DNA of 64,000 nt from Granulicella sp. (GTDB lineage Bacteria; Acidobacteriota; Terriglobia; Terriglobales; Acidobacteriaceae). The translations under genes were made by a program, and so were the position numbers. Of this stretch, positions 31,863 through 45,163 are shown piece by piece (position 1 is the stretch's first letter; every line of letters starts with the position of its first letter). The stretch is from positions 62,001-126,000 of the forward strand of contig JANXYX010000013.1 of the NCBI GenBank assembly GCA_025408425.1, read 5' to 3'. The notes under the pieces were generated by a model, which ran no database searches, had not been told where the DNA came from, and saw only the letters and a list, made by a program, of their open reading frames with translations.

Positions 31863-33686
31863 ATGACTAAGCAACTACAGGCGACTCTGGCAGCGATATT
31901 GGTAATTTCGACAATGTCGGTGCCGGCGCAAACGAGTTCGACGGCGACGCCGGCGAAGGCCAGGAAGACTGCTAAGAAGGCTCCAGTTGAATCCACGACC
32001 GAGCGGCAGATTCGGGAACTGCGTGAAGAGATGCAGAGCCAGCAGGCCGAGATTGATGCGTTGAAGCGGCAGAACGCGGACAAGGATGCGAAGCTTGCTA
32101 CTGCGTCTCAGGATGCTCAGGCGGCGAATGCGGCAGCAGCGGCGGCGACCGCGCAGACGCAGAGTGTGAGCTCGAGCGTGCAGGAGAACAAGGAAGCTGT
32201 CACGACACTGAACAGCACCTTGACAGACCTAAAGAACTTGAACGTCGGGATTGCGCAGACGATCAGCGATACGAAGAAAGACCTGAGCGAGAAGATTGAT
32301 TCGCCAACGACCCTTCACTATAAGGGCGTGACGATTACGCCGGTTGCGTACTTTGCGTTTGAAAATGTGTACCGTTCGCGTTCGATGAACTCGGACATCA
32401 ACACTCCATTCAATGCAACGCCTTATCCTGGCGCGGCGCAGGCCCACACGAGCGAGCTGAATTTTTCTGGCCGGCAGAGCCGTCTTGGCGGTCTGTTCGA
32501 AGGAAATACCGGGCCGTTCAAGCTGTCTGGCTACTTTGAATCGGACTTTTTGGGAACGGGCATCACGAGCAACAGCAACCAGAGCAACAGCTATGTGCTG
32601 CGTCAGCGGCAGATCTGGGGCCAGGCAGCGACGACAAGTGGTTTCGCGGTGACGGGCGGCCAGATGTGGTCGCTGGTGACGGAGACGAAGGTATCGACGA
32701 ACAACCGCACCGAGAACACCCCGATGAACATCGACGCGCAGTACAACGTTGGCTTCAGCTGGGCTCGTCAGGCTGCGATCCGGTTTCAACAGAAGACAGG
32801 GAAGCTGACGGTTGCGATGGCGCTTGAGAATGCGCAGATTCTGTATTCGGCCACGAATGCGAATGCGAATTTCTTTATAGGCAATGCTGGTGCGGGCGGC
32901 GGTCAGTATAACTTGTCGGCGAACTTCTCGAATAACGTCGCGCCTGACGTAATCGTGAAGGCGACCTACGACCCGAAGCTTGGCCACTACGAGATTGGCG
33001 GTCTGGCCCGGTTCTTCCGCGATCGTTATTATCCTGGGCAGACGAACGCAACTCCGACGGCTGCAGGTGGTGTGAATGACACGAAGATTGGCGGCGGATT
33101 CTTTGCGAATGCCCGTTTCCCCGTAACCAAGTTTGTGGACTTCGGGCTGCATGCACTGGTGGGAACTGGTGTAGGCCGGTATGGGACATCCTCACTGCCT
33201 GATGTGACGGTTCATCCGGATGGGACGCTGGCACCGATCAAGTCGTACCAGGGTCTTTACTCGATGGAGTTCCATCCGAACAAGAAGTTGGATCTCTTCG
33301 GATACGCTGGCGCCGAGTACGCACAGCGCACCGTGTATCTCAGCACGCTGGGCACATCTGCCGGCAAGCTGGTTGGGTATGCTCCGCCGACGAGCTCGAA
33401 TGCGGGTTGCAATACGGAGACTCTGCCGACCAGCGCTGGTAATGGCCTGGCTGGAGCAGCGCCTTACGATCCGGGTACTCCTGGAAGCTGCCTGGGCGCG
33501 ACTCGTGTGGTGATTGAAGGCACGGCGGGCATTACCTATCGTGTCTACACCAGCCCGAAGTTTGGGCGACTCCAGTACCAGCTGCAGTACAGCTATCTGG
33601 ATCGCGCCGCCTGGACCGGGGTTGGTGGTGCACCGAAGGCGACGAACAACATGGTGTTCACGGGAATGCGTTACTACATTCCGTAG
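31863..33686 (+). CDS. Outer membrane porin with N-terminal coiled coil
   Basis: A 607-residue outer-membrane protein. A Sec signal ends at VPAQ (residues about 1-23). Residues about 45-125 form a charged heptad-like coiled coil (RQIRELREEMQSQQAEIDALKRQ), probably trimerising and peptidoglycan-facing. The remainder is a beta barrel of amphipathic strands ending GMRYYIP. The layout resembles large trimeric porins (DcaP or phosphate-selective types) more than TonB receptors. It stands first in a plus-strand series leading to uxaC, so a uronate or sugar-acid entry role is a reasonable inference. A strong terminator follows at 33702-33731, so it is transcribed separately from uxaC or with partial read-through. 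Confidence 0.82.
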   Translation: MTKQLQATLAAILVISTMSVPAQTSSTATPAKARKTAKKAPVESTTERQIRELREEMQSQQAEIDALKRQNADKDAKLATASQDAQAANAAAAAATAQTQSVSSSVQENKEAVTTLNSTLTDLKNLNVGIAQTISDTKKDLSEKIDSPTTLHYKGVTITPVAYFAFENVYRSRSMNSDINTPFNATPYPGAAQAHTSELNFSGRQSRLGGLFEGNTGPFKLSGYFESDFLGTGITSNSNQSNSYVLRQRQIWGQAATTSGFAVTGGQMWSLVTETKVSTNNRTENTPMNIDAQYNVGFSWARQAAIRFQQKTGKLTVAMALENAQILYSATNANANFFIGNAGAGGGQYNLSANFSNNVAPDVIVKATYDPKLGHYEIGGLARFFRDRYYPGQTNATPTAAGGVNDTKIGGGFFANARFPVTKFVDFGLHALVGTGVGRYGTSSLPDVTVHPDGTLAPIKSYQGLYSMEFHPNKKLDLFGYAGAEYAQRTVYLSTLGTSAGKLVGYAPPTSSNAGCNTETLPTSAGNGLAGAAPYDPGTPGSCLGATRVVIEGTAGITYRVYTSPKFGRLQYQLQYSYLDRAAWTGVGGAPKATNNMVFTGMRYYIP

Positions 33687-33701: not shown

Positions 33702-33731
33702 AAAAAGGGCACCCTCGTGGTGCCCTTTTTC
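33702..33731 (+). terminator. Rho-independent terminator after the porin
   Basis: Stem GGGCACC/GGTGCCC (33707-33713 and 33719-33725), 5-base loop, preceded by A6 and followed by TTTTTCTTTT. It lies about 20 bp after the porin stop codon. Confidence 0.92.
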
Positions 33732-33841: not shown

Positions 33842-35245
33842 ATGACGATATTGGATGCAAACAGGCTGTTTCCTGCGGATGTGGCAGCGCGAAGAGTAGC
33901 TGCGAAGTTGTATGAGATGGTGAAGGATCTGCCGATCATCTCGCCGCACGGACACACGGATCCGCGCTGGTTTGCAGAGAACGGGGCGTTTCCAAACCCT
34001 GCGGCGTTGTTGATCCAGCCAGATCACTATGTGTTTCGGATGCTGTATTCGCAGGGGGTTTCGCTGGAGTCGCTGGGGATTCCGCAGTTGGATGGGAAGG
34101 AGCATGCCGATCCGCGTGAGGTTTGGCGCATCTTCGCGAAGCACTATTACCTGTTCCGCGGAACGCCGACGCGGCTGTGGCTGGACTATACGTTTGAGAA
34201 CCAGTTTGGGCTGAAGAAGCGGCTGGGACCTGACAATGCGGATGAGTACTACGAAGTGGTCGCGAAGGCTCTGGAAACACCAGAGTTTCGTCCTCGCGTA
34301 TTGTTCGAGAAGTTCAATATTGAGGTGTTAGCGACGACCGATACTCCGCTGGATACGCTGGAGTTCCACCAAGCGATTCGAGCGTCGGGGTGGAAGGGCC
34401 GGGTGGTGCCGACGTTTCGGCCGGACTCGGTGATTGATGCGGAGTATGCAGGATTTGTTGAGAACATCGAGAAGCTGGGGGAGATTGCCGGCGAGGATGT
34501 TGGGACCTACAAGGGATATCTGAACGCGCTGCGGAACCGGCGTGCGTTCTTCAAGACGATGGGGGCGACGGCGACCGACCATGGGCATCTGACGGCGTTG
34601 ACGGCGGATCTGGATGCGGGGGCAGCGGAAGCGCTGTATCAGCGGATTGTTTCAGGACATTCGTCGCCGGAGGAGCAACAGCTCTTCCAGGCGCAGATGC
34701 TGACGGAGATGGCCGGGATGAGCGTGGAGGACGGACTGACGATGCAGCTGCATCCGGGGTCAGTACGGAACCACAACAAACTGGTGTATGAGAAGTTTGG
34801 CCGGGACAAGGGCGCGGACATGCCCTCGCCGACTGAGTATGTCCGGGCGATGCGTCCGTTGCTGAGCAAGTACGGGAATGATTCGCGGCTGACGTTCATC
34901 GTGTTTACGCTGGATGAGACGGCGTTTTCGCGTGAGTTGGCTCCGCTGGCGGGCCACTATCCTGCGTTGAAGCTGGGGCCGCCGTGGTGGTTCCACGACT
35001 CTGCTGAGGGGATGATGCGGTTTCGGGAGACGGCGACCGAGACGGCTGGTTTTTACAACACGGTTGGGTTCAACGACGATACTCGTGCGTTGCTGTCGAT
35101 ACCGGCGCGACATGATGTTGCCCGACGGATTGATTGCGCGTTTCTGGGACGGCTGGTGTCGGAACATCGGCTGGATGAGGATGAGGCTGTCGAGTTGGCG
35201 ATGGATTTGACGGTGAACCTGGTGAAGAAGGCCTACAAGCTGTAG
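33842..35245 (+). CDS. uxaC: Glucuronate/galacturonate isomerase
   Basis: UxaC, 467 residues, interconverts D-glucuronate with D-fructuronate and D-galacturonate with D-tagaturonate. An amidohydrolase-superfamily protein: SPHGHTDPRWFAEN near residue 35 contains the H-x-H pair, VLATTDTPLDTLEFHQAI and MQLHPGSVRNHN follow, and the C-terminal PARHDVARRIDCAFLGRLV is typical of the family. The upstream ribosome site is weak (GAAAGAAAAATA). It is the first gene of a close five-gene run (LarA homologue, uxaE, gntK, SDR) on the plus strand that terminates at 39295. It feeds both uronates into the epimerase UxaE and the SDR. Confidence 0.95.
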   Translation: MTILDANRLFPADVAARRVAAKLYEMVKDLPIISPHGHTDPRWFAENGAFPNPAALLIQPDHYVFRMLYSQGVSLESLGIPQLDGKEHADPREVWRIFAKHYYLFRGTPTRLWLDYTFENQFGLKKRLGPDNADEYYEVVAKALETPEFRPRVLFEKFNIEVLATTDTPLDTLEFHQAIRASGWKGRVVPTFRPDSVIDAEYAGFVENIEKLGEIAGEDVGTYKGYLNALRNRRAFFKTMGATATDHGHLTALTADLDAGAAEALYQRIVSGHSSPEEQQLFQAQMLTEMAGMSVEDGLTMQLHPGSVRNHNKLVYEKFGRDKGADMPSPTEYVRAMRPLLSKYGNDSRLTFIVFTLDETAFSRELAPLAGHYPALKLGPPWWFHDSAEGMMRFRETATETAGFYNTVGFNDDTRALLSIPARHDVARRIDCAFLGRLVSEHRLDEDEAVELAMDLTVNLVKKAYKL

Positions 35246-35273
35246 GCGACAGGACTCAGGAAGGCGTTGGACT

Positions 35274-36548
35274 ATGAGTTTATTTTTTGGAGCGGGATCG
35301 CCGACTACTGAGATGTCGCCGGTAGAGGTGCGGGCGGGCCTGTTTGCTGCGCTGGAACTGATTGGGAAGCGTGAGCGAGTGTTGGTGGTGCCGCCGGACT
35401 TCACTCGGATGCACTCGCAAAGCGGTTTGGTGACGGAGCTGGCGTGGGAGTTCTACGGCGAGCGGCTAAAGGACGTACTGCCGGCGCTGGGGACGCACAA
35501 GCCGATGTCGGACCACGAGATTGCCACGATGTATGGGGCGACGCCGCGAGCGCTTTTCCGGAACCATGACTGGCGGAACGATGTGGTGACGCTGGGTGAG
35601 GTTCCTGGGGAGTTCATGTACGAGGTGAGCGAGGGGAAGCTGGACTACACGTGGCCGGCCCAGGTGAACAAGCTGCTGCGGGATGGTGGTCACGACCTGA
35701 TTCTGTCGATTGGGCAGGTGGTTCCGCATGAAGTGGTGGGGATGGCGAACTACAACAAGAATATTTTTGTGGGAACGGGTGGCTCGATCGGGATTCATCG
35801 CTCGCATTTTCTGGGGGCGGTGTATGGGATGGAGCGGATGATGGGGCGCGCCGATACCCCGGTGCGGCGGGTGCTGAACTATGCCAGTGACCACTTCGCG
35901 AAGGACATGCCGATTGTGTATGTGCAGACGGTGGTGGGGAAGAATGCGGTGGGCAAGCTGGTGATTCGCGGAATGTATATCGGCGATGACGTGGAGTGCT
36001 TTGAGAAGGCCGCGGCGCTGAGCCTGAAGGTGAACTTCCTGATGATGGATCGGGAGATCAAGAAGGCGGTGGTGTTTTTGGATCCGCATGAGTTCAAGAG
36101 TACCTGGCTGGGGAACAAGGCGGTATATCGGACGCGCATGGCGTTGGCGGATGATGCTGAGTTGATCGTGCTTGCTCCGGGGGTGCATGAGTTTGGCGAG
36201 GATGGGGCGATTGACACGCTGATTCGTAAGTATGGATATTGCGGGACTCCGGCAACGCTGGAGGCGGTGAAGGAAGATGCGCAGCTGGCAGGGAATTTGA
36301 GCGCGGCGGCGCATTTGATCCATGGCTCGAGCGAGGGGCGGTTCACGATCCGGTACTGTCCGGGGCATCTGACTCGGCAGGAGATTGAGGCTGCCCATTT
36401 TGAGTATGGAGACCTGGCGGAGATGATGGCGAAGTACAAGCCGGAGAGTCTGAAGGATGGCTGGAACGTGGTTGATGGCGAGGAGATCTTCTATATTTCG
36501 AACCCTGGGCTAGGGCTTTGGGCGTATGAGGGGCGGTTCAAGGATTAG
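35274..36548 (+). CDS. LarA-family nickel-pincer racemase/epimerase
   Basis: A 424-residue LarA homologue (DUF2088 superfamily), 28 bp after uxaC. The NPN cofactor site is intact: H152, K162 and H178 (in VPHEVVG, YNKNIF, HRSH) have exactly the 10- and 16-residue spacing of H174, K184 and H200 in Lactobacillus LarA, and H75 in ALGTHKPM corresponds to catalytic H108. The family racemises or epimerises 2-hydroxy acids at C2; besides lactate racemase, malate racemase and D-gluconate 2-epimerase members are known to me. Being inside a uronate operon with gluconokinase but without mannonate dehydratase, it most likely interconverts D-mannonate and D-gluconate. Cofactor genes larB, larC and larE are nearby. 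Confidence 0.88.
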   Translation: MSLFFGAGSPTTEMSPVEVRAGLFAALELIGKRERVLVVPPDFTRMHSQSGLVTELAWEFYGERLKDVLPALGTHKPMSDHEIATMYGATPRALFRNHDWRNDVVTLGEVPGEFMYEVSEGKLDYTWPAQVNKLLRDGGHDLILSIGQVVPHEVVGMANYNKNIFVGTGGSIGIHRSHFLGAVYGMERMMGRADTPVRRVLNYASDHFAKDMPIVYVQTVVGKNAVGKLVIRGMYIGDDVECFEKAAALSLKVNFLMMDREIKKAVVFLDPHEFKSTWLGNKAVYRTRMALADDAELIVLAPGVHEFGEDGAIDTLIRKYGYCGTPATLEAVKEDAQLAGNLSAAAHLIHGSSEGRFTIRYCPGHLTRQEIEAAHFEYGDLAEMMAKYKPESLKDGWNVVDGEEIFYISNPGLGLWAYEGRFKD

Positions 36549-36637
36549 GAGTTGCCGAGTGAGTGGGTGAATCGGTATGCTTGGACGGCTGGCAAGTGGT
36601 TAGACCAATATGGTTCGAAAGTTGAGAGTGGATTGCA

Positions 36638-37900
36638 ATGAGTGAAGGATTGAAGCTTCCGAGGTTTTCGGTTGGAGTAGGCGATCGTTTTGCGCATCAG
36701 GCCAAGGCGCAGTTGGCAGCATGTGTATTGGCAGGTGAAGCGGGTGTAGAGGTTGTGCCGGTATGGAACAAGTCCAACCGTGAGCACATGATTATTGGTT
36801 CTGAGCCAAGCAATACTCGGATTGCAGCGGATGCTGCGGTGAAGGCCCTGGGTTGGACGAAACCTTACTTCCTGGATGCGGACCACATCAACCTGAAGAC
36901 TGTAGGACGGTTTCTCGAGCCTTGTGATTTCTTTACGCTGGACGTGGCGGACCTGATTGGACAGCCGGCGAAGGCGGAGGATGTGGATGCGTTTGTGACG
37001 CGGCATCCAGAGCTGGTGGGGACGGTGACGATTCCGCATATCGCTGAGCCGTTCAAGACGGATGAGGCGTTTGTGAAGGGTGTTGCGAACAAGTTTCTAG
37101 CTGCAGTGCAGCATGCGGGAGAGATCTATCGGTTGCTGGTGGACAAGAATGGTGCAGGGAAGTTTGTGTCTGAGGTTTCGATGGACGAGACGGACTATCC
37201 GCAGACGCCGGTGGAGTTGTTGATTATTCTGGCGATGATTGCGGATGAGAAGATTCCGATCCAGACGATTGCGCCGAAGTTTACGGGCCGGTTCAACAAG
37301 GGCGTTGATTATGTGGGCGACGTAGCGCAGTTCACCAAGGAGTTCAACGAGGATCTGGCGGCGATTGCATTTGCGATCAAGACTTATGGGCTGCCAGAGA
37401 ATCTGAAGCTTAGCGTGCACTCGGGCTCGGACAAGTTTTCGATCTACAAGGCGATTCATGATGCGGTTATCAGCTTTGGTGCTGGCGTGCACTTGAAGAC
37501 AGCCGGGACGACGTGGCTGGAAGAGTTGATTGGTCTGGCGGAAGCGGGCGGAACTGGACTGGAGATTGCGAAAGAGGTCTACTCCGAGGCCTATGCGCAC
37601 AGCGAGGAGCTTTGCGCCCCGTATGCAACTGTGATCGATATCGACCCGGCGAAGCTACCGACACCAGAAGAGGTGAACGGCTGGACGAGTGAGCAGTACA
37701 CTTCGGCGCTGCGGCATGTGCAGAGCAATGCGGCGTACAACCAGAGCTTCCGGCAGTTGCTGCATGTGGGCTTCAAGGTGGCAGCGAAGATGGGCGACCG
37801 GTATTTGAATGCGCTTGAGGCGAATGAAGAGATCGTCGCGAAGAATGTGACGACGAACCTGTTTGAGCGGCACATCAAGCCGGTATTTCTTGGACTGTAG
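36638..37900 (+). CDS. uxaE: Tagaturonate epimerase (tagaturonate/fructuronate)
   Basis: UxaE, 420 residues, the metal-dependent epimerase first described in Thermotoga maritima, which converts D-tagaturonate to D-fructuronate so that galacturonate joins the glucuronate path. Family features seen are FLDADHINLKTVGRFLEPCDFFTLD (residues about 79-103), EVSMDETDYPQTPVELL (about 177-193), and KFTGRFNKGVDYVGD with HSGSDKFSIYKAIHD (about 255 and 310), which carry His and Asp residues likely to bind metal. It lies 90 bp after the LarA homologue. Its presence explains why no tagaturonate reductase (UxaB) is seen. Confidence 0.93.
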   Translation: MSEGLKLPRFSVGVGDRFAHQAKAQLAACVLAGEAGVEVVPVWNKSNREHMIIGSEPSNTRIAADAAVKALGWTKPYFLDADHINLKTVGRFLEPCDFFTLDVADLIGQPAKAEDVDAFVTRHPELVGTVTIPHIAEPFKTDEAFVKGVANKFLAAVQHAGEIYRLLVDKNGAGKFVSEVSMDETDYPQTPVELLIILAMIADEKIPIQTIAPKFTGRFNKGVDYVGDVAQFTKEFNEDLAAIAFAIKTYGLPENLKLSVHSGSDKFSIYKAIHDAVISFGAGVHLKTAGTTWLEELIGLAEAGGTGLEIAKEVYSEAYAHSEELCAPYATVIDIDPAKLPTPEEVNGWTSEQYTSALRHVQSNAAYNQSFRQLLHVGFKVAAKMGDRYLNALEANEEIVAKNVTTNLFERHIKPVFLGL

Positions 37901-37928
37901 CGAAGGGTTTTGATCAGGAAGAGAGCGG

Positions 37929-38432
37929 ATGATAGTTGTTTTGATGGGTGTAACCGGATCCGGCAAGAGCACGATCGGGACGCTGCTGGCTGAGCGTGCC
38001 GGTACGGTGTTTGCGGACGCGGACGACTATCATCCGCTGGCGAACAAAGAGAAGATGGCTGCGGGACACCCGTTGAATGATGACGACCGTCAGCCGTGGC
38101 TGGAGGAGCTGAATCGGCTGCTGCGTGGTTGGTTCGCGTCTGGCGAGGGCGGTGTGCTGGCTTGCTCTGCGCTGAAGCAGAGGTATCGGGATACGCTGGA
38201 GGCGGGAATGCCTGCGGGTACGGTCCATTTCGTACTGCTGGATGGTTCACCGGAGTTGATTGCTGAACGGTTGGCTGCGCGGGTGCATGAGTATATGAAT
38301 CCGAATCTGCTGGCCAGTCAATTGGCGACGCTGGAGCGTCCAGCGGATGCTTTACGGGTGTTGAACGATCGGGCGCCTGAGTTGGTTGTGGATGAGATTC
38401 TGAAGCAGATCGATGTAGCATCCAAGATATAA
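37929..38432 (+). CDS. gntK: Gluconokinase
   Basis: A 167-residue GntK/IdnK-type kinase that phosphorylates D-gluconate to 6-phosphogluconate using ATP. The P-loop is GVTGSGKST (residues 7-15), followed by FADADDYHPLANKEKMAAG (about 31-49), a near-perfect match to the family, and CSALKQRYRDTL. It begins 29 bp after uxaE with AGAGAG upstream. In a uronate operon without KDG kinase or aldolase its presence implies that the route ends in gluconate rather than 2-keto-3-deoxygluconate. Confidence 0.95.
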   Translation: MIVVLMGVTGSGKSTIGTLLAERAGTVFADADDYHPLANKEKMAAGHPLNDDDRQPWLEELNRLLRGWFASGEGGVLACSALKQRYRDTLEAGMPAGTVHFVLLDGSPELIAERLAARVHEYMNPNLLASQLATLERPADALRVLNDRAPELVVDEILKQIDVASKI

Positions 38433-38468
38433 TTCAAAGAGCGAACAAAATAAGAGAGAGGTACTTTG

Positions 38469-39245
38469 ATGGGGCATCCGTTGTTTGACTTGAGCGGCAA
38501 ATCGGCAGTAGTGGTGGGTGGGACATCGGGCATTGGGTTGGCGATGGCGATTGGACTGGCGGAGGCTGGTGCCGATGTGGTGGCGAGCTCGCGGCGTGCC
38601 GAGCAGGTGGATGAAGCGGCGAAGGCGATTGAAGCCAAGGGCCGCAAGTCACTGCGGTTGACCTCGGATGTGGGGGACAGGGCTTCACTCGTAGCGCTGC
38701 TGGAAGGAACGGTGGAGGCGTTCGGCAAGGTCGATATTCTGATCAACTGCGCGGGCAAGATAAAGCGGGCGCCGACGGTCGATTTTCCTGAGGATGTCTG
38801 GAACGACATTATGGATACAAACGTGACGGGTACACTGCGGGCCTGCCAGATCTTTGGTAAGCATATGCTGGAGCGCGGTTCTGGGCGGATTATCAATATC
38901 GCTTCGCTGAACACGTTTGTTAGCCTGAAAGAAGTGACGGCTTATGCGGCGAGCAAGGCGGCAGTAGGTTCGCTGACGAAGTCGCTGGCAGTGGAGTGGA
39001 GTTCGAAGGGCGTGACCGTAAATGCGATTGCGCCGGGGGTGTTCCGGACGGCGTTGAATCAGAAGCTGCTGGATGAGAGCGAACGCGGCAAGGAGCTGTT
39101 GATGCGGACGCCGATGGGGCGGTTCGGCAAGACGGAGGAGCTGGTAGGATCGGCGATCTTTCTGGCGAGTGACGCTTCAGCGTTTGTCACCGGAGAGATT
39201 CTGGTGGTGGACGGCGGATTCCTGGCCAGTGGCGTGAATCAGTAG
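38469..39245 (+). CDS. SDR oxidoreductase, probable fructuronate reductase/mannonate dehydrogenase or gluconate-type dehydrogenase
   Basis: A 258-residue classical short-chain dehydrogenase. The cofactor motif TSGIG lies in VVGGTSGIGLAMA (residues about 17-29), NCAG follows, and the catalytic Ser-Tyr-Lys is ASLN...YAASKAAV. The closest named relatives are 2-deoxy-D-gluconate 3-dehydrogenase (KduD) and gluconate 5-dehydrogenase. In this operon the missing step is NAD(P)H reduction of fructuronate to mannonate, normally done by UxuB, and this SDR is the only candidate. ATG 38469 follows GAGAGG; a TTG one codon earlier is possible. It is the last gene before the terminator. Confidence 0.9.
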   Translation: MGHPLFDLSGKSAVVVGGTSGIGLAMAIGLAEAGADVVASSRRAEQVDEAAKAIEAKGRKSLRLTSDVGDRASLVALLEGTVEAFGKVDILINCAGKIKRAPTVDFPEDVWNDIMDTNVTGTLRACQIFGKHMLERGSGRIINIASLNTFVSLKEVTAYAASKAAVGSLTKSLAVEWSSKGVTVNAIAPGVFRTALNQKLLDESERGKELLMRTPMGRFGKTEELVGSAIFLASDASAFVTGEILVVDGGFLASGVNQ

Positions 39246-40428: not shown

Positions 40429-41184
40429 TTAGCGGCTGGCCGCGCGTGCAATGAGAGTCGCAGTATAGGCTGCGCCGAAGCCGTTATCAATATTGACGAC
40501 GGTAACGTTTGGGGAACAGGAGTTGAGCATGCCGAGGAGTGCGGCGGCCCCGGCGAAGGAGGCTCCGTAGCCTACCGAGGTTGGGACAGCGATGACGGGA
40601 ACGGCGACCAGACCGCCGACAACGCTAGGGAGAGCGCCTTCCATTCCGGCGCAGACGATGATGGCATCGGCGGTGTTGAGGACTTCGCGGTGGGCGAGGA
40701 GACGGTGCAGGCCAGCGACGCCTACGTCGTAGATGCGGGTGACATTTGTGTTGAAGAGCTCTGCGGTGATGGCGGCTTCTTCTGCGATGGGGATGTCGCT
40801 GGTGCCGGCGCAGAGGATGGCGATGTGGCCCTTGAACTCCGGCGCAGTGGATTGGCGGAGAGTGAGGGCACGAGCGTGGGGGTGGTATTGGGCTGTGGGG
40901 GTAGCGGCGATTACGGCGTCAGCGGTGGTGGTATCGGCGCGGGTGGCTAGTACGTCGGCACCGGTAGCGGCCATTCTGGCGAATATTTCAGATGTCTGGG
41001 AGGGAGTTTTTCCGGCTGCGTAGATGACTTCGGGTAAGCCGTTGCGAAGGTTTCGATGGTGGTCGATCTTGGCGTGGCCCAGGTCTTCAAAGGGGAGAGA
41101 GGCGAGGCGCACGGACGCATCTTCGGGGGAGAGGTTGCCGCGTTGAACTTCGGCCAGAAGAGTGAGGAGAGAGGTCTTGTTCAT
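40429..41184 (-). CDS. larB: Nickel-pincer cofactor biosynthesis protein LarB
   Basis: LarB, 251 residues. It carboxylates nicotinic acid adenine dinucleotide at C5 and hydrolyses the phosphoanhydride, the first NPN step. The C-terminal half is PurE-like: ILCAGTSDIPIAEEAAITAE (residues about 122-141), VGVAGLHRLL and IVCAGMEGALPSVVGGLVAVPVIAVPTS, with GASFAGAAALLGMLNSC at the end. The N-terminal VIYAAGKTP segment also matches the family. It overlaps larC by four bases, so the two are translationally coupled. LarB, LarC and LarE together activate the LarA homologue encoded about 4 kb away. Confidence 0.95.
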   Translation of the reverse strand: MNKTSLLTLLAEVQRGNLSPEDASVRLASLPFEDLGHAKIDHHRNLRNGLPEVIYAAGKTPSQTSEIFARMAATGADVLATRADTTTADAVIAATPTAQYHPHARALTLRQSTAPEFKGHIAILCAGTSDIPIAEEAAITAELFNTNVTRIYDVGVAGLHRLLAHREVLNTADAIIVCAGMEGALPSVVGGLVAVPVIAVPTSVGYGASFAGAAALLGMLNSCSPNVTVVNIDNGFGAAYTATLIARAASR

Positions 41185-42539
41185 ATTGCTTTGGTTGCGA
41201 GGTACGCTGCGGTGGCTGCCTGGATGACTTGTTTGACGGGGACGGAGTTTTTTGCAGCGGCGGCTCGGCAGTCTTCGAACTCGGGTGCGGCGTTGAGTTC
41301 TTCGCCTCGGAGGGATCCGATCTTGATGCGGATGTCGCCGTAGGAGGTGGCGACGGTGGCGAATGTACGGTGGAGGCAGGAGCGGTGCTCGCGGTGTATG
41401 CGGATGCCGAGGGTGCTGGTTTCGGTGAGGAGCAGGCGCTCAAGGGCGTGGGCGTGGGCGTCGTCTGTGAGGACGGTGAGTAGAGTGCCGAGGCGACCCT
41501 TCTTCATCTGGACGGAGGTGCACATGACGTCGAGCGCGCCCTGGGTCAGGGCAGCTTCGGTGACGTGGGCGAGGATCTGGGGGCTGAGGTCGTCGATGGC
41601 GGTTTCGAGGATGGTGACGGTGTCTTTGTCGCTGCCGTGTCGGGAGGTGGCATCGGATCGGGTGTCGTCGGTGTCGCCGATGGAGAGGCGCAGGACGTTA
41701 GGGAAGTCTTTCGGGTTGCGGGAGCCAGCACCGTAGCCGATGTGTTGAACGCGCATGGCGGGCTGGGGGCTAAAGGTGGGAGCGAGGGCGCGGATGATGG
41801 CGGCTCCGGTAGGCGTGACGAGTTCCTTTTCGATGTGGGCGGAGTAGGTGGGGAGACCGCGGAGGAGGTCCGCAGTGGCGGGAGCTGGGACGGGGAATCG
41901 TCCGTGGGCGCAGTCGACCATGCCGCCGCCGACGTTGAGGGGGGAGGCATACCACTTGTCAATTTTGAGGGCGTGGATGCCGGCGCTAGCGGCTACGATG
42001 TCGACGATTGCATCGACTGCGCCAACTTCGTGGAAGTGAATTTTTTCGATGTCGACGTTGTGGATTTTAGCTTCGGAGGCACCGAGGAGTTCGAAGGCGT
42101 GTATGGCGGTTTGCTTGACCGGGGCAGCTAGATGAGCGGATTGGATGAGGTTGCGGATGACGTTGAGGGAACGGCCGTGTGAGTGATCGTGCGGATGGTC
42201 GTGTGAGTGATCGTGGGAGTGGCCGATTTTGTGCTCGTGCTGCGTTTTGGGCTGGTGCTGGTGTGTATGCGAGAGCTGGTGGGCCTGCTCGATTGTGCTG
42301 TCGATGCCGGCTTGTTTGGGTGGCGTGGGGGAGTCAGCGGGAGTTGTGCCGACCATGACGTTGACCTTGGCGCTGGAGATGCCGCTGCGATCGACTTTCT
42401 CGATATGGAGGGATGCGCCGAGATGGAGTGAGGCAGTGGCTGCGTGGAGGATTTGAGGGTCGACTCCGGCGTCGATGAGTGCGCCGAGGAACATGTCTCC
42501 GCTGATACCGGCGAAGCAGTCGAGATAGGCGATTCGCAT
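41181..42539 (-). CDS. larC: Nickel insertion protein LarC
   Basis: LarC (DUF111), 452 residues, inserts nickel into the pyridinium bis-thiocarboxylate mononucleotide by CTP-dependent cyclometallation. The start MRIAYLDCFAGISGDMFLGALIDAG is diagnostic; FHEVGAVDAIVDIVA (His/Glu ligands) and GGGMVDCAHGRFPVPAPAT follow. A strongly His-rich loop (42172-42276; many H-x-H and HDH units) probably binds or stores nickel. In L. plantarum LarC is made from two frames by programmed frameshifting; here it is one continuous frame. An earlier ATG at 42548 is possible. Confidence 0.94.
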   Translation of the reverse strand: MRIAYLDCFAGISGDMFLGALIDAGVDPQILHAATASLHLGASLHIEKVDRSGISSAKVNVMVGTTPADSPTPPKQAGIDSTIEQAHQLSHTHQHQPKTQHEHKIGHSHDHSHDHPHDHSHGRSLNVIRNLIQSAHLAAPVKQTAIHAFELLGASEAKIHNVDIEKIHFHEVGAVDAIVDIVAASAGIHALKIDKWYASPLNVGGGMVDCAHGRFPVPAPATADLLRGLPTYSAHIEKELVTPTGAAIIRALAPTFSPQPAMRVQHIGYGAGSRNPKDFPNVLRLSIGDTDDTRSDATSRHGSDKDTVTILETAIDDLSPQILAHVTEAALTQGALDVMCTSVQMKKGRLGTLLTVLTDDAHAHALERLLLTETSTLGIRIHREHRSCLHRTFATVATSYGDIRIKIGSLRGEELNAAPEFEDCRAAAAKNSVPVKQVIQAATAAYLATKAI

Positions 42540-42772
42540 GGAGGACATTGTTTCACGGAGCAGATGGGGATGGGTAGGCACAGCAACTTCAAGAAAAGAA
42601 GATGATTAGCCGTGCAGGAATTGGGGATTGGGTATAGACTTCGTGCCATTCTCATTTTTATCGAAGTTTGGGCCCGCAATTTCTCAAGGTTTATCCGCGT
42701 TTATTTCCGGATTTCGTTGGCGGAGATCCGAATAATTCAACTGATTCTCAAAGCTCGAGGAGGCGTACCGCT

Positions 42773-43642
42773 ATGAAAAAGTTAGCAGGATTTTGTACGG
42801 GGTTGTGTGTGCTTTTCAGTGGTGTTGGTGCAATGGCGGCACAGGAGATGTCTGGCGGAAGCATGGCTCCTCCTAAGGTGCTGGTGATCCAGCGTGAGTT
42901 TCTGAAGCCGGGTAAGGCCGGCAGTGTGCATGAGAAGAGCGAGAGTGCTTTTGTTCAGGCGTTTTCTGCAGCTAAGTGGCCGACGCACTATTTGGGAATG
43001 AATTCGCTGTCCGGCCGTCCGCGGGCGTTGTTCTTTTTAGGGTATCCGTCGTTTGAAGCCTGGGAGAAGGACAACCAGGCCACTGAGAAGAATGCAACCT
43101 TGTCTGCAGCACTCGACCGTCTTTCAGTGGCGGATGGAGACTTGCTGACTGAGTTCGGTCAGAGCGTCCTCGTCTACGACGAGGATCACAGCCTGCGTGC
43201 TGGTAGCATCGTCCACTCGCGCTACTTTGAGATATCCCAGTACAAGATCAAGCCGGGCCACAGGAAAGAGTGGGTCGAACTGATGAAGCTGTATCGCGAT
43301 GGGTATGAGAAGGCCACAACCAATGCGAACTGGGCTGTGTACGAGAGCTACTATGGGCAAGACAATGGCGGGTACTATCTTGCCATTTCCAGGATGACGT
43401 CGCTGGCCGAAGATGACCAGAGCATGGGAGATGACAAGAAGTTTGCGGACGTCATGGGCGAAGACGGAATGAAAAGGGTCAGGGAACTGACTGCCAGCTG
43501 CATCGAGTCGCAGCAGACCAACCTGTTTCAGTTCAACCCCAAGATGAGCTATCCGGCGGATGAATGGATCAAGGCCGATCCGTTCTGGAAGCCGAAGGTG
43601 GCAATGGCGGTGAAGAAGGCCGCAGCACCAGCGACTCCTTAG
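42773..43642 (+). CDS. Exported protein of unknown function (NIPSNAP-like fold possible)
   Basis: A 289-residue secreted or periplasmic protein. It has a signal peptide (KKLAGFCTGLCVLFSGVGAMAAQ) and a good GAGGAGG site before the ATG at 42773. Two related halves of about 110 residues (VLVIQREFLKPGKAGSVHE... and RYFEISQYKIKPGHRKEWVEL...) suggest a duplicated dimeric alpha-beta-barrel (NIPSNAP/ABM-like) domain. I have no confident family. It lies between larC and larE but on the opposite strand, so a link to the cofactor is not implied. Confidence 0.72.
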   Translation: MKKLAGFCTGLCVLFSGVGAMAAQEMSGGSMAPPKVLVIQREFLKPGKAGSVHEKSESAFVQAFSAAKWPTHYLGMNSLSGRPRALFFLGYPSFEAWEKDNQATEKNATLSAALDRLSVADGDLLTEFGQSVLVYDEDHSLRAGSIVHSRYFEISQYKIKPGHRKEWVELMKLYRDGYEKATTNANWAVYESYYGQDNGGYYLAISRMTSLAEDDQSMGDDKKFADVMGEDGMKRVRELTASCIESQQTNLFQFNPKMSYPADEWIKADPFWKPKVAMAVKKAAAPATP

Positions 43643-43738
43643 GCTTATTGGGAAGATTGAATGCAGGTCTCTCCCCGCCTTGTCGCTTTGCGATGGGGTG
43701 GGGATTTGTTTTGCGTGTCGTTTGCGGTGGAGTAAGGA

Positions 43739-44572
43739 TCAGCGGGTGGCGGGCTGGATGGCGGAGGCGGGGAGCACGTCATTCATAGAGCCGGACCGAT
43801 AGCCCTGGGTGTCGAGGGTGATGTAAAGGAAGCCGAGAGGCTTGAGTGCGGCGGTGATTCGGTCGAGGGTTTCGAGCGAGAGGGCGCGTGGCAGGTCGGT
43901 GCGTGCGATTTCGATGCGAGCGAGGTCGCCGTGGTGGCGGACGCGGACCTGGAGGAAGCCCAGTGCGTGGAGGGCTTCTTCGGCTTGTTCTACCTGGCTT
44001 AGGTTTTCGCGGGTGACATCGCGGCCGTATTCGATGCGGGAGGAGAGGCAGGCTGAGGCTGGCTTGTCTGCAAGGGAGAGTCCGGCTTCGCGGGCGAGGG
44101 TGCGGATCTCGGATTTGGTGAGCTGCGCGGTGACGAGAGGGGCGACGGCGTGGTGCTGGGTGGCGGCCTGCTGGCCGGGGCGGAAGTCGCCGCGGTCGTC
44201 GAGGTTCATGCCGTAGGCGATGTGATGGAAGTTTCGGGCGATGCGGGTCTGCTCCATCTGGGTGAAGAGCTCGTCTTTGCAGTAGAAGCAGCGATGGCTG
44301 TCGTTGCGCTGGTAGTCGGGGTTCTCTAGCTCGTCGGTGTGGAGGATGTGGGTGGGGATGTTGTGCTGTGTGGTGAAGGCGAGGGCTGCGGCGAGCTCGG
44401 CGCGGGGGAGGGAGGGGGAGTCGGCGATGACAGCGAGCATGTTATCGCCGAGTACCTGGTAGGCGGCGTAGGCGAGGTAGGCCGAGTCGGTGCCGCCGGA
44501 GTAGGCGACGAGGACGGAGCCCAGGTCGCGGAGGGTGGTGGAGAGGAGTTCGGATTTTGCGGCGAGAGACAT
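43739..44572 (-). CDS. larE: ATP-dependent sacrificial sulfur transferase LarE
   Basis: LarE, 277 residues from the ATG at 44572. It adenylates the pyridine dicarboxylate mononucleotide and donates sulfur to form the thiocarboxylate of NPN. The PP-loop is VLVAYSGGTDSAYLAYAAY near the N-terminus; HRCFYCKDELF and the ASACLSSRIEYGRDV segment contain the conserved cysteines, including the family's sacrificial or cluster-binding Cys. The frame extends 42 codons upstream with a Pro/His-rich non-family sequence, so the later start is preferred. Together with larB and larC it gives a full cofactor set in the window. Confidence 0.94.
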   Translation of the reverse strand: MSLAAKSELLSTTLRDLGSVLVAYSGGTDSAYLAYAAYQVLGDNMLAVIADSPSLPRAELAAALAFTTQHNIPTHILHTDELENPDYQRNDSHRCFYCKDELFTQMEQTRIARNFHHIAYGMNLDDRGDFRPGQQAATQHHAVAPLVTAQLTKSEIRTLAREAGLSLADKPASACLSSRIEYGRDVTRENLSQVEQAEEALHALGFLQVRVRHHGDLARIEIARTDLPRALSLETLDRITAALKPLGFLYITLDTQGYRSGSMNDVLPASAIQPATR

Positions 44573-44674
44573 GCTGCAACGATTGTAGGACAGGAGGATG
44601 GGGTTGGTCAGATTTGTGAGATGATGCGGCGAGTGGCGACGATGGCAGGCAGGCGAAGGAAGATTGAGTAAATT

Positions 44675-45163
44675 ATGCAGGTCTGGCTGATCCTTCAATT
44701 ACTGGTTTTGCTGGCGCTGGCCAATGGGACGCCAGTTGCGGTCAATAAGCTGCTGGGGCAGCGGTGGGCGTATCCGATTGATGGCGGCGTGACGTTTTTT
44801 GACGGGCGGCCTTTGTTTGGGGCGTCGAAGACTGTGCGGGGGCTTGTGCTTTCGGTGCTGGTGACGTCGGCTGGGGCGCTGCTGATGGGGTTGGGGTGGA
44901 AGACTGGAGCTGCGATAGGTGCCGTGTCGATGGCGGGGGATATTTGCTCCAGCTTTTTGAAGCGTAGGATGAGGCTGGTTGCGAGCAGCAGGGCGACGGG
45001 GCTGGATCAGATACCTGAGTCTCTACTTCCGCTGCTGGCGTGCCGCCAGGCGCTATCTTTGACGGTGCTGGATATTGCGGTGGTGGTAGGGGTGTTTTTT
45101 GTGGGAGAGGTGCTGCTGTCGATTTTGTTTTACAGGCTTCACCTGCGAGAGCGGCCTTATTAG
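44675..45163 (+). CDS. CDP-archaeol synthase-like (CarS/PF01864) membrane protein
   Basis: A 162-residue integral membrane protein with about four hydrophobic helices. It has the CarS signature: DGRPLFGASKTVRG (residues about 43-56), GDICSSFLKRRMRL, and LDQIPESLLPLL, which carry the acidic and basic residues of the cytidylyltransferase site. The archaeal enzyme activates unsaturated archaetidic acid with CTP; bacterial members are of unknown substrate, perhaps phosphatidate-like lipids or polyprenyl phosphates. It is divergent from larE, about 100 bp apart, and convergent with the phosphoesterase gene with only 1 bp between stops. Confidence 0.86.
   Translation: MQVWLILQLLVLLALANGTPVAVNKLLGQRWAYPIDGGVTFFDGRPLFGASKTVRGLVLSVLVTSAGALLMGLGWKTGAAIGAVSMAGDICSSFLKRRMRLVASSRATGLDQIPESLLPLLACRQALSLTVLDIAVVVGVFFVGEVLLSILFYRLHLRERPY

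Follow-up and report, generated by a model that had tools for sequence, protein, structure and literature searches.

A uronate operon of Granulicella with a clade-18 LarA homologue: a probable gluconate branch of mannonate catabolism

Closest described systems and the Granulicella operon

A link between D-mannonate and D-gluconate was proposed by Rodionova et al. 2012 for Thermotoga, in which uxaE, a fructuronate reductase gene, gntE and gntK are clustered, and the same authors noted that Acidobacterium and Terriglobus have homologues of gntE (PMC6978723). For Thermotoga maritima, the genes regulated by UxaR are given as aldH-pelB-gnd-uxaRED-gntEK (Rodionova et al. 2012, via PMC3750489), uxaD being named as the fructuronate reductase (PMC7953866). 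D-gluconate 2-epimerase activity was reported in 2020 for the LarA-family enzymes GntE1 and GntE2, with Km values for D-mannonate of 120 and 17 mM, the role of GntE2 having been hypothesised earlier (PMC7583248). Also, LarAH15 acts on D-mannonate with a Km of 9.4 mM, and LarAH10, which belongs to another clade, is weakly active (3.8 mM; PMC11770544). Moreover, mannonate kinase and 6-phosphomannonate 2-epimerase activities were measured in extracts of Lactobacillus suebicus, with no genes assigned to them (PMC6978723). Here, we describe a run of five plus-strand genes (33842-39245), composed of uxaC, a LarA-family gene, uxaE, gntK and a gene of the short-chain dehydrogenase/reductase (SDR) family, in a stretch of 64,000 nucleotides from Granulicella sp. 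(the window; contig JANXYX010000013.1, positions 62,001 to 126,000). The coordinates given in a preliminary description of this DNA were confirmed, as were the identities, by profile matches.

The operon most likely serves uronate catabolism of a gluconate-branch type. The reactions of this route, above all the substrates of the SDR and of the LarA homologue, are read from sequence and context. UxaC would convert glucuronate to fructuronate and galacturonate to tagaturonate, and UxaE would epimerise tagaturonate to fructuronate. The SDR would then reduce fructuronate, which is 5-dehydro-D-mannonate, at C5 to give D-mannonate, and the LarA homologue would invert C2 to yield D-gluconate, using the nickel-pincer nucleotide (NPN) made by the LarB, LarC and LarE proteins encoded next door. 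Finally, GntK would form 6-phosphogluconate, which could enter the pentose phosphate pathway (Gnd) or the Entner-Doudoroff pathway (Edd, Eda). A separate SDR-ManD module, together with KdgK and KdgA, could divert mannonate to 2-keto-3-deoxygluconate. This reading is supported by the assignment of the LarA homologue to clade 18, its invariant active site, a structural model closest to GntE2, and the adjacent maturation genes; by an SDR paralogue placed before manD, the absence of PF08125 proteins and the presence of gnd, edd and eda in the genome; by co-occurrence across the order, gnd and SDR neighbours in other phyla, and GntE2-like LarA genes beside gnd in relatives; and by the published activity of GntE1, GntE2 and LarAH15 towards D-mannonate.

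As in T. maritima, uxaE, the putative fructuronate reductase gene, the LarA-type epimerase gene and gntK stand together with the same proposed route to 6-phosphogluconate, and a dehydratase route (kdgAK-uxuBA in T. maritima) coexists in the genome. What differs from the Thermotoga route is the LarA of clade 18, which shares 31% identity with GntE2 over 341 aligned residues, the presence of uxaC in the operon, the lar maturation genes alongside, and a dehydratase branch formed by ManD, with no UxuA over the cut-off. In contrast to T. maritima, the run contains no gnd, regulator or ABC transporter gene. The L. suebicus activities likewise link mannonate to 6-phosphogluconate without a dehydratase, but there the kinase acts before the epimerase. 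Although the preliminary description had regarded the route as new, a novel pathway was rejected, because the route had been proposed for Thermotoga in 2012 and GntE2 was assayed later. The operon is thus an untested branch of a pathway already proposed, and partly proven, in Thermotoga. A literature search found no paper linking nickel-pincer, gluconate and Acidobacteria.

The clade-18 LarA homologue and its slot in uronate gene clusters

The match of the LarA homologue to NF052594 (NPN_18_hexonate, "nickel-dependent putative hexonate epimerase", an equivalog model) spans residues 12-417, and Pfam Lar_N is matched with 38.8 bits (cut-off 23.3). By sequence, its sole PDB match is 4nar (117.5 bits), identified as GntE2 (PMC7583248). 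The AlphaFold model (pLDDT of 92.3) has 4nar also as its best fold match (TM of 0.81), and all 19 PDB fold matches with E < 0.001 are LarA-type. When residues were mapped through the GntE2 numbering of PMC7583248, the catalytic D42, H75, H152 and K282 and the cofactor-binding R45, K162 and H178 aligned with those of GntE2, each being invariant in all 42 clade-18 proteins aligned (taken from 81 gathered, namely that of the window and relatives from named genomes). The catalytic H/K/H spacing was therefore rightly described as intact. The signature of groups 18-20, a Glu in the loop after the catalytic His and a Trp in helix 11 (PMC7583248), is present as well, so that GntE2 (LarAH20) and the window protein have in common the fold, the catalytic and cofactor residues, the loop Glu and the helix-11 Trp. 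Nonetheless, GntE2, GntE1 (LarAH19) and LarAH15 lie outside clade 18, and no T. maritima protein reaches the cut-off of NF052594; compared with GntE2, clade 18 has E-V instead of E-S, N281 instead of G286, and mostly S343 instead of N348. The maturation genes that the LarA superfamily needs in the genome are supplied by larB, larC and larE (40429-44698), downstream of the operon on the opposite strand and unmentioned in the preliminary description.

Neighbourhoods were compared at 80 named loci, kept from 568 places encoding relatives: 42 from Acidobacteriota (by title) and 38 others, mostly from Bacteroidota, Ignavibacteria and Planctomycetota. A radius of 6 kb was used, and contigs end sooner at 12 of the 42 and 18 of the 38 loci. 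Near clade 18, the Acidobacteriota loci encode an SDR (28), GntK (22), UxaE (20), UxaC (16), LarB (11) and Gnd (2). The other loci encode a D-mannonate-oxidoreductase-like SDR (29), Gnd (26), a PfkB-family kinase (20), UxaC (19), UxaE (14) and UxuA (4), and none encodes GntK; all three of the SDRs scanned among them pass NF006132, the model of SDR-type D-mannonate oxidoreductase, with 366-390 bits (cut-off 281). In these phyla, in which the SDR is of a different type and GntK relatives are lacking, clade 18 thus stands between a mannonate-making and a 6-phosphogluconate-consuming enzyme. This is the strongest new evidence for the gluconate branch.

The PfkB-family kinase is divergent and is found near the clade-18 LarA at L077:8851-9939 and 19 other loci outside Acidobacteriota, mostly together with gnd and the D-mannonate-oxidoreductase-like SDR; as no relative of GntK is encoded there, it is a candidate gluconokinase or mannonate kinase of unexpected fold. 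On a contig labelled Rhodanobacteraceae (L061), uxaC stands next to a clade-18 LarA gene whose product is 77% identical to that of the window, which reflects either mis-binning or transfer. Similar-looking proteins, possibly HAD-type hydrolases as judged by eye from their N-terminal motifs, are encoded at L127:5463-6359 and L112:9069-9992, each immediately upstream of a LarA homologue; these two LarA homologues belong to separate clades.

A related slot is seen where clade 18 is lacking. In twelve genomes of the order, no protein passes the clade-18 cut-off, but a LarA scoring 177-221 bits is encoded. Among the six examined, this LarA lies beside gnd in four, with a D-mannonate-oxidoreductase-like SDR nearby in three of these and UxaE on the stretch in three; the other two are without such context. 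Two of these LarAs were compared with the PDB and are GntE2-like, reaching 212 and 238 bits to 4nar, compared with 117.5 for the LarA of the window. Since GntE2-like proteins adjoin gnd in relatives, the slot that clade 18 occupies is filled, within one family, also by a clade of which a member is proven.

For co-occurrence, 200 genomes of the source organism's order were sampled and matches over the curated cut-offs were counted; Fisher tests on these counts are descriptive only, as shared ancestry was ignored. Clade 18 was found in 129 genomes, UxaC in 149, UxaE in 111, UxuA in 34 and PF08125 in 17. Clade-18 genomes carry uxaC in 124 and uxaE in 105 cases, and clade 18 is present in 103 of the 109 genomes with both UxaC and UxaE, 80 of these 103 being without UxuA over the cut-off; ManD was not counted across the order, so the lack of UxuA does not mean the lack of a mannonate dehydratase. 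The 149 UxaC genomes divide into 95 with clade 18 and no UxuA, 29 with both, three with UxuA only and 22 with neither, and ten of the last group hold a LarA scoring 177-203 bits with NF052594, below its cut-off. In the best 40 of the 129 clade-18 genomes, the start of the clade-18 gene is no more than 6 kb away from uxaE in 23 genomes and from uxaC in 28; both genes are this close in 16, and neither is in five.

Genome complement and locus layout

The source genome (4.23 Mb in 53 contigs, 99.67% complete) encodes both fates of mannonate, as far as its gene content can be read. The preliminary description had argued for a bypass from the absence of UxuA, KdgK and KdgA, which holds for the cluster but not for the genome. 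A search for MR_MLE_C proteins and their classification gave five, one of which is a ManD-type D-mannonate dehydratase (NF043051, 702.1 bits; cut-off 550) with PDB relatives among which are entries carrying the name D-mannonate dehydratase (E near 1e-180), so that a genome without mannonate dehydratase was rejected. The manD gene shares contig 13 with the operon, from which it is some 86 kb distant on the upstream side, and directly follows the gene for an SDR with 67% identity to that of the window. This pair (L137:7306-10341) has the look of a second mannonate module using the paralogue, and the divergent gene beside it resembles, by eye, an IclR-type regulator. A single kdgK-kdgA pair is found on another contig, beside an alginate lyase gene. 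On a third contig (contig 50, L034:1123-2340), a divergent UxuA-like protein falls short of the two curated mannonate dehydratase cut-offs, with 85 bits where 199.55 are required and 108.4 where 191 are; it reads as having a twin-arginine translocation (TAT) signal, and UxuA matches below cut-off recur across the order. No PF08125 (Mannitol_dh_C) protein was found in the genome, hence no UxuB or UxaB of that family, while such proteins are present in 7 of 14 control genomes. Elsewhere in the genome, gnd and eda are encoded, as is edd over its cut-off (977 bits versus 708.25). Mannonate is thus probably a branch point, and "bypass" should read "branch". A second LarA homologue (L001:853-2124, contig 19) stands beside two genes that by eye resemble those of CoA-transferase subunits; its best scores are with the models for LarA and for malate racemase, neither of which it passes (353.8 against a cut-off of 460).

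The best NCBIfam model for the window SDR is kduD (257.6 bits, below the cut-off of 338.85), and the protein is also under the curated cut-offs of PRK08213 and PRK08277. KduD and gluconate 5-dehydrogenase account for its top models and for several of its relatives in the PDB; D-mannonate oxidoreductase ranks lower. One relative is 1vl8 (E of 6.5e-57), which we take to be TM0441 of T. maritima and which by gene order would be UxaD. A possible alternative start is the ATG at 38469. The role as fructuronate reductase is probable and rests on context: the SDR-manD pair in the same genome suggests that SDRs of this family make mannonate, which would hence be the input of the LarA homologue.

Features of the locus are collected in Table 1. 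The five operon genes are separated by 28, 89, 28 and 33 bases, as checked from start and stop codons. The closest PDB relatives of UxaE are UxaE of Cohnella (E of 5.7e-25), and the protein has no counterpart to positions 1-79 of the Pfam model PF16257; a start near profile position 70-80, with the N-terminal part of the model missing, is common to most of the order matches listed. GntK matches gluconokinases of the PDB with E about 1e-30. Upstream, the gene at 31863-33686 was considered as an operon member and set aside because a stem-loop stands between it and uxaC, terminator-like sites over the whole scan being no more numerous than in shuffled sequences (10 versus a mean of 11.0). That gene looks porin-like by eye, has no Pfam or NCBIfam match, and has a relative near clade 18 at 9 of the 42 Acidobacteriota loci. 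A promoter scan gave no better result than shuffles (5 versus a mean of 4.1). Between the operon and the lar genes lies a gene for an aldo-keto reductase that carries a TAT signal.

Table 1. Genes and other features of the uronate operon and the adjoining lar genes in the window.
Feature	Position	Strand	Evidence
uxaC, uronate isomerase (glucuronate to fructuronate, galacturonate to tagaturonate)	33842..35245	+	NF002794 577.6 bits (cut-off 387), PF02614 281.4 bits
LarA homologue of clade 18, probable D-mannonate/D-gluconate 2-epimerase using nickel-pincer nucleotide	35274..36548	+	NF052594 650.9 bits (cut-off 500)
uxaE, tagaturonate/fructuronate 3-epimerase	36638..37900	+	PF16257 163.6 bits (cut-off 27.1), profile 80-473 of 475
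gntK, gluconokinase of GntK/IdnK type	37929..38432	+	TIGR01313 153.8 bits (cut-off 113.75)
SDR, probable fructuronate reductase, UxaD-like	38466..39245	+	KduD/gluconate-5-dehydrogenase-type SDR below curated cut-offs
larB, nickel-pincer nucleotide synthesis (accessory)	40429..41184	-	NF033503 292.1 bits (cut-off 175)
larC, nickel insertion (accessory)	41181..42581	-	TIGR00299 214 bits (cut-off 90), NF052512 140.8 bits (cut-off 50)
larE, sacrificial sulfur transferase (accessory)	43739..44698	-	TIGR00268 310.5 bits (cut-off 150)
Possible terminator at the operon boundary (perfect stem of 12 bp and T-rich tail)	33702..33730	+	Between upstream gene (31863-33686) and uxaC

Alternative substrates and the standing of the branch

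Several observations weigh against the gluconate branch. The Km values for D-mannonate of the assayed enzymes are high (17, 120, 9.4 and 3.8 mM), and the native substrate may differ; moreover, no assay of a clade-18 enzyme was found in the literature searched. The window SDR misses the cut-off of NF006132 (228.8 of 281 bits). At 15 of the 42 Acidobacteriota loci, the 6 kb around clade 18 encode none of UxaC, UxaE, GntK and an SDR on the same strand, five of these loci being cut by contig ends and two having gnd; outside Acidobacteriota, 5 of 38 loci, all at contig ends, show no partner genes. The preliminary description had suggested a search for co-occurrence without uxuA. Across the order, UxuA is commoner in clade-18 genomes (29 of 129) than in others (5 of 71), and this positive association led us to reject clade 18 as a plain replacement of UxuA across the order. 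PF08125 is likewise commoner with clade 18 (16 of 129 versus 1 of 71). Finally, the genome's own ManD, together with kdgK-kdgA, means that the LarA step need not carry flux.

In the light of the high Km values, two chemically sound readings with another substrate are kept alive, and it is unlikely, though worth weighing, that the clade-18 enzyme acts in vivo on 6-phosphomannonate or fructuronate rather than on free mannonate. In the first reading, phosphorylation precedes epimerisation, the GntK homologue being a mannonate kinase and the LarA homologue a 6-phosphomannonate/6-phosphogluconate 2-epimerase. Both activities were measured in L. suebicus extracts, a kinase gene and gnd are often near clade 18, and the 42 aligned clade-18 proteins all have R286, R288 and R356, residues for which a phosphate-binding role would be speculation. 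However, the window GntK passes the ordinary TIGR01313 model, the GntK of Escherichia coli is reported not to use mannonate (PMC6978723), and the assayed GntE enzymes accept unphosphorylated mannonate, which makes this order of steps improbable.

The probability is also low that the dehydratase route, formed by the second SDR, ManD, KdgK and KdgA, carries the uronate flux, with LarA and GntK serving another hexonate or the conversion of gluconate to mannonate. ManD is well over its cut-off in a pair with the second SDR and an IclR-like divergent neighbour, kdgK-kdgA is present, and the epimerisation is reversible in principle. Nonetheless, the LarA gene is placed between uxaC and uxaE in one run with gntK, no ManD relative over 250 bits was found near clade 18 at the 110 loci scanned (the 80 named ones and 30 short ones of the order), and the alginate lyase gene beside kdgK-kdgA can explain that pair. 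As for a swapped order, in which the LarA homologue would turn fructuronate into 5-dehydro-D-gluconate at C2 and the SDR, as a gluconate 5-dehydrogenase, would form gluconate for GntK, it is permitted by stereochemistry and agrees with the models and PDB relatives ranking highest for the SDR and with the high mannonate Km of the assayed GntEs, but it is very improbable given that the 67% identical SDR adjoins manD, whose product needs mannonate, that the neighbouring SDR in other phyla and in one GntE2-type relative is of the D-mannonate oxidoreductase type, and that uxuA also occurs at 4 of the 38 loci outside Acidobacteriota.

The route through UxaC, UxaE, the SDR, the LarA homologue and GntK, as set out in the preliminary description, is thus the best supported one and is strengthened by the neighbourhoods in other phyla, whereas its argument from missing enzymes and its novelty are given up. 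If 6-phosphomannonate or fructuronate were the substrate, this would be a new reaction for nickel-pincer enzymes, and in the case of 6-phosphomannonate, the first gene for the epimerase of L. suebicus, spread over several phyla next to gnd. If the gluconate branch is true, many uronate-using soil Acidobacteriota and many Bacteroidota would degrade pectin and glucuronate partly by way of a nickel-pincer enzyme, so that the turnover of plant polymers would be linked to the supply of nickel, and the branch could balance redox cofactors. Moreover, a large clade of LarA enzymes would gain a concrete candidate substrate, with ManD as a competing branch in the same cell.

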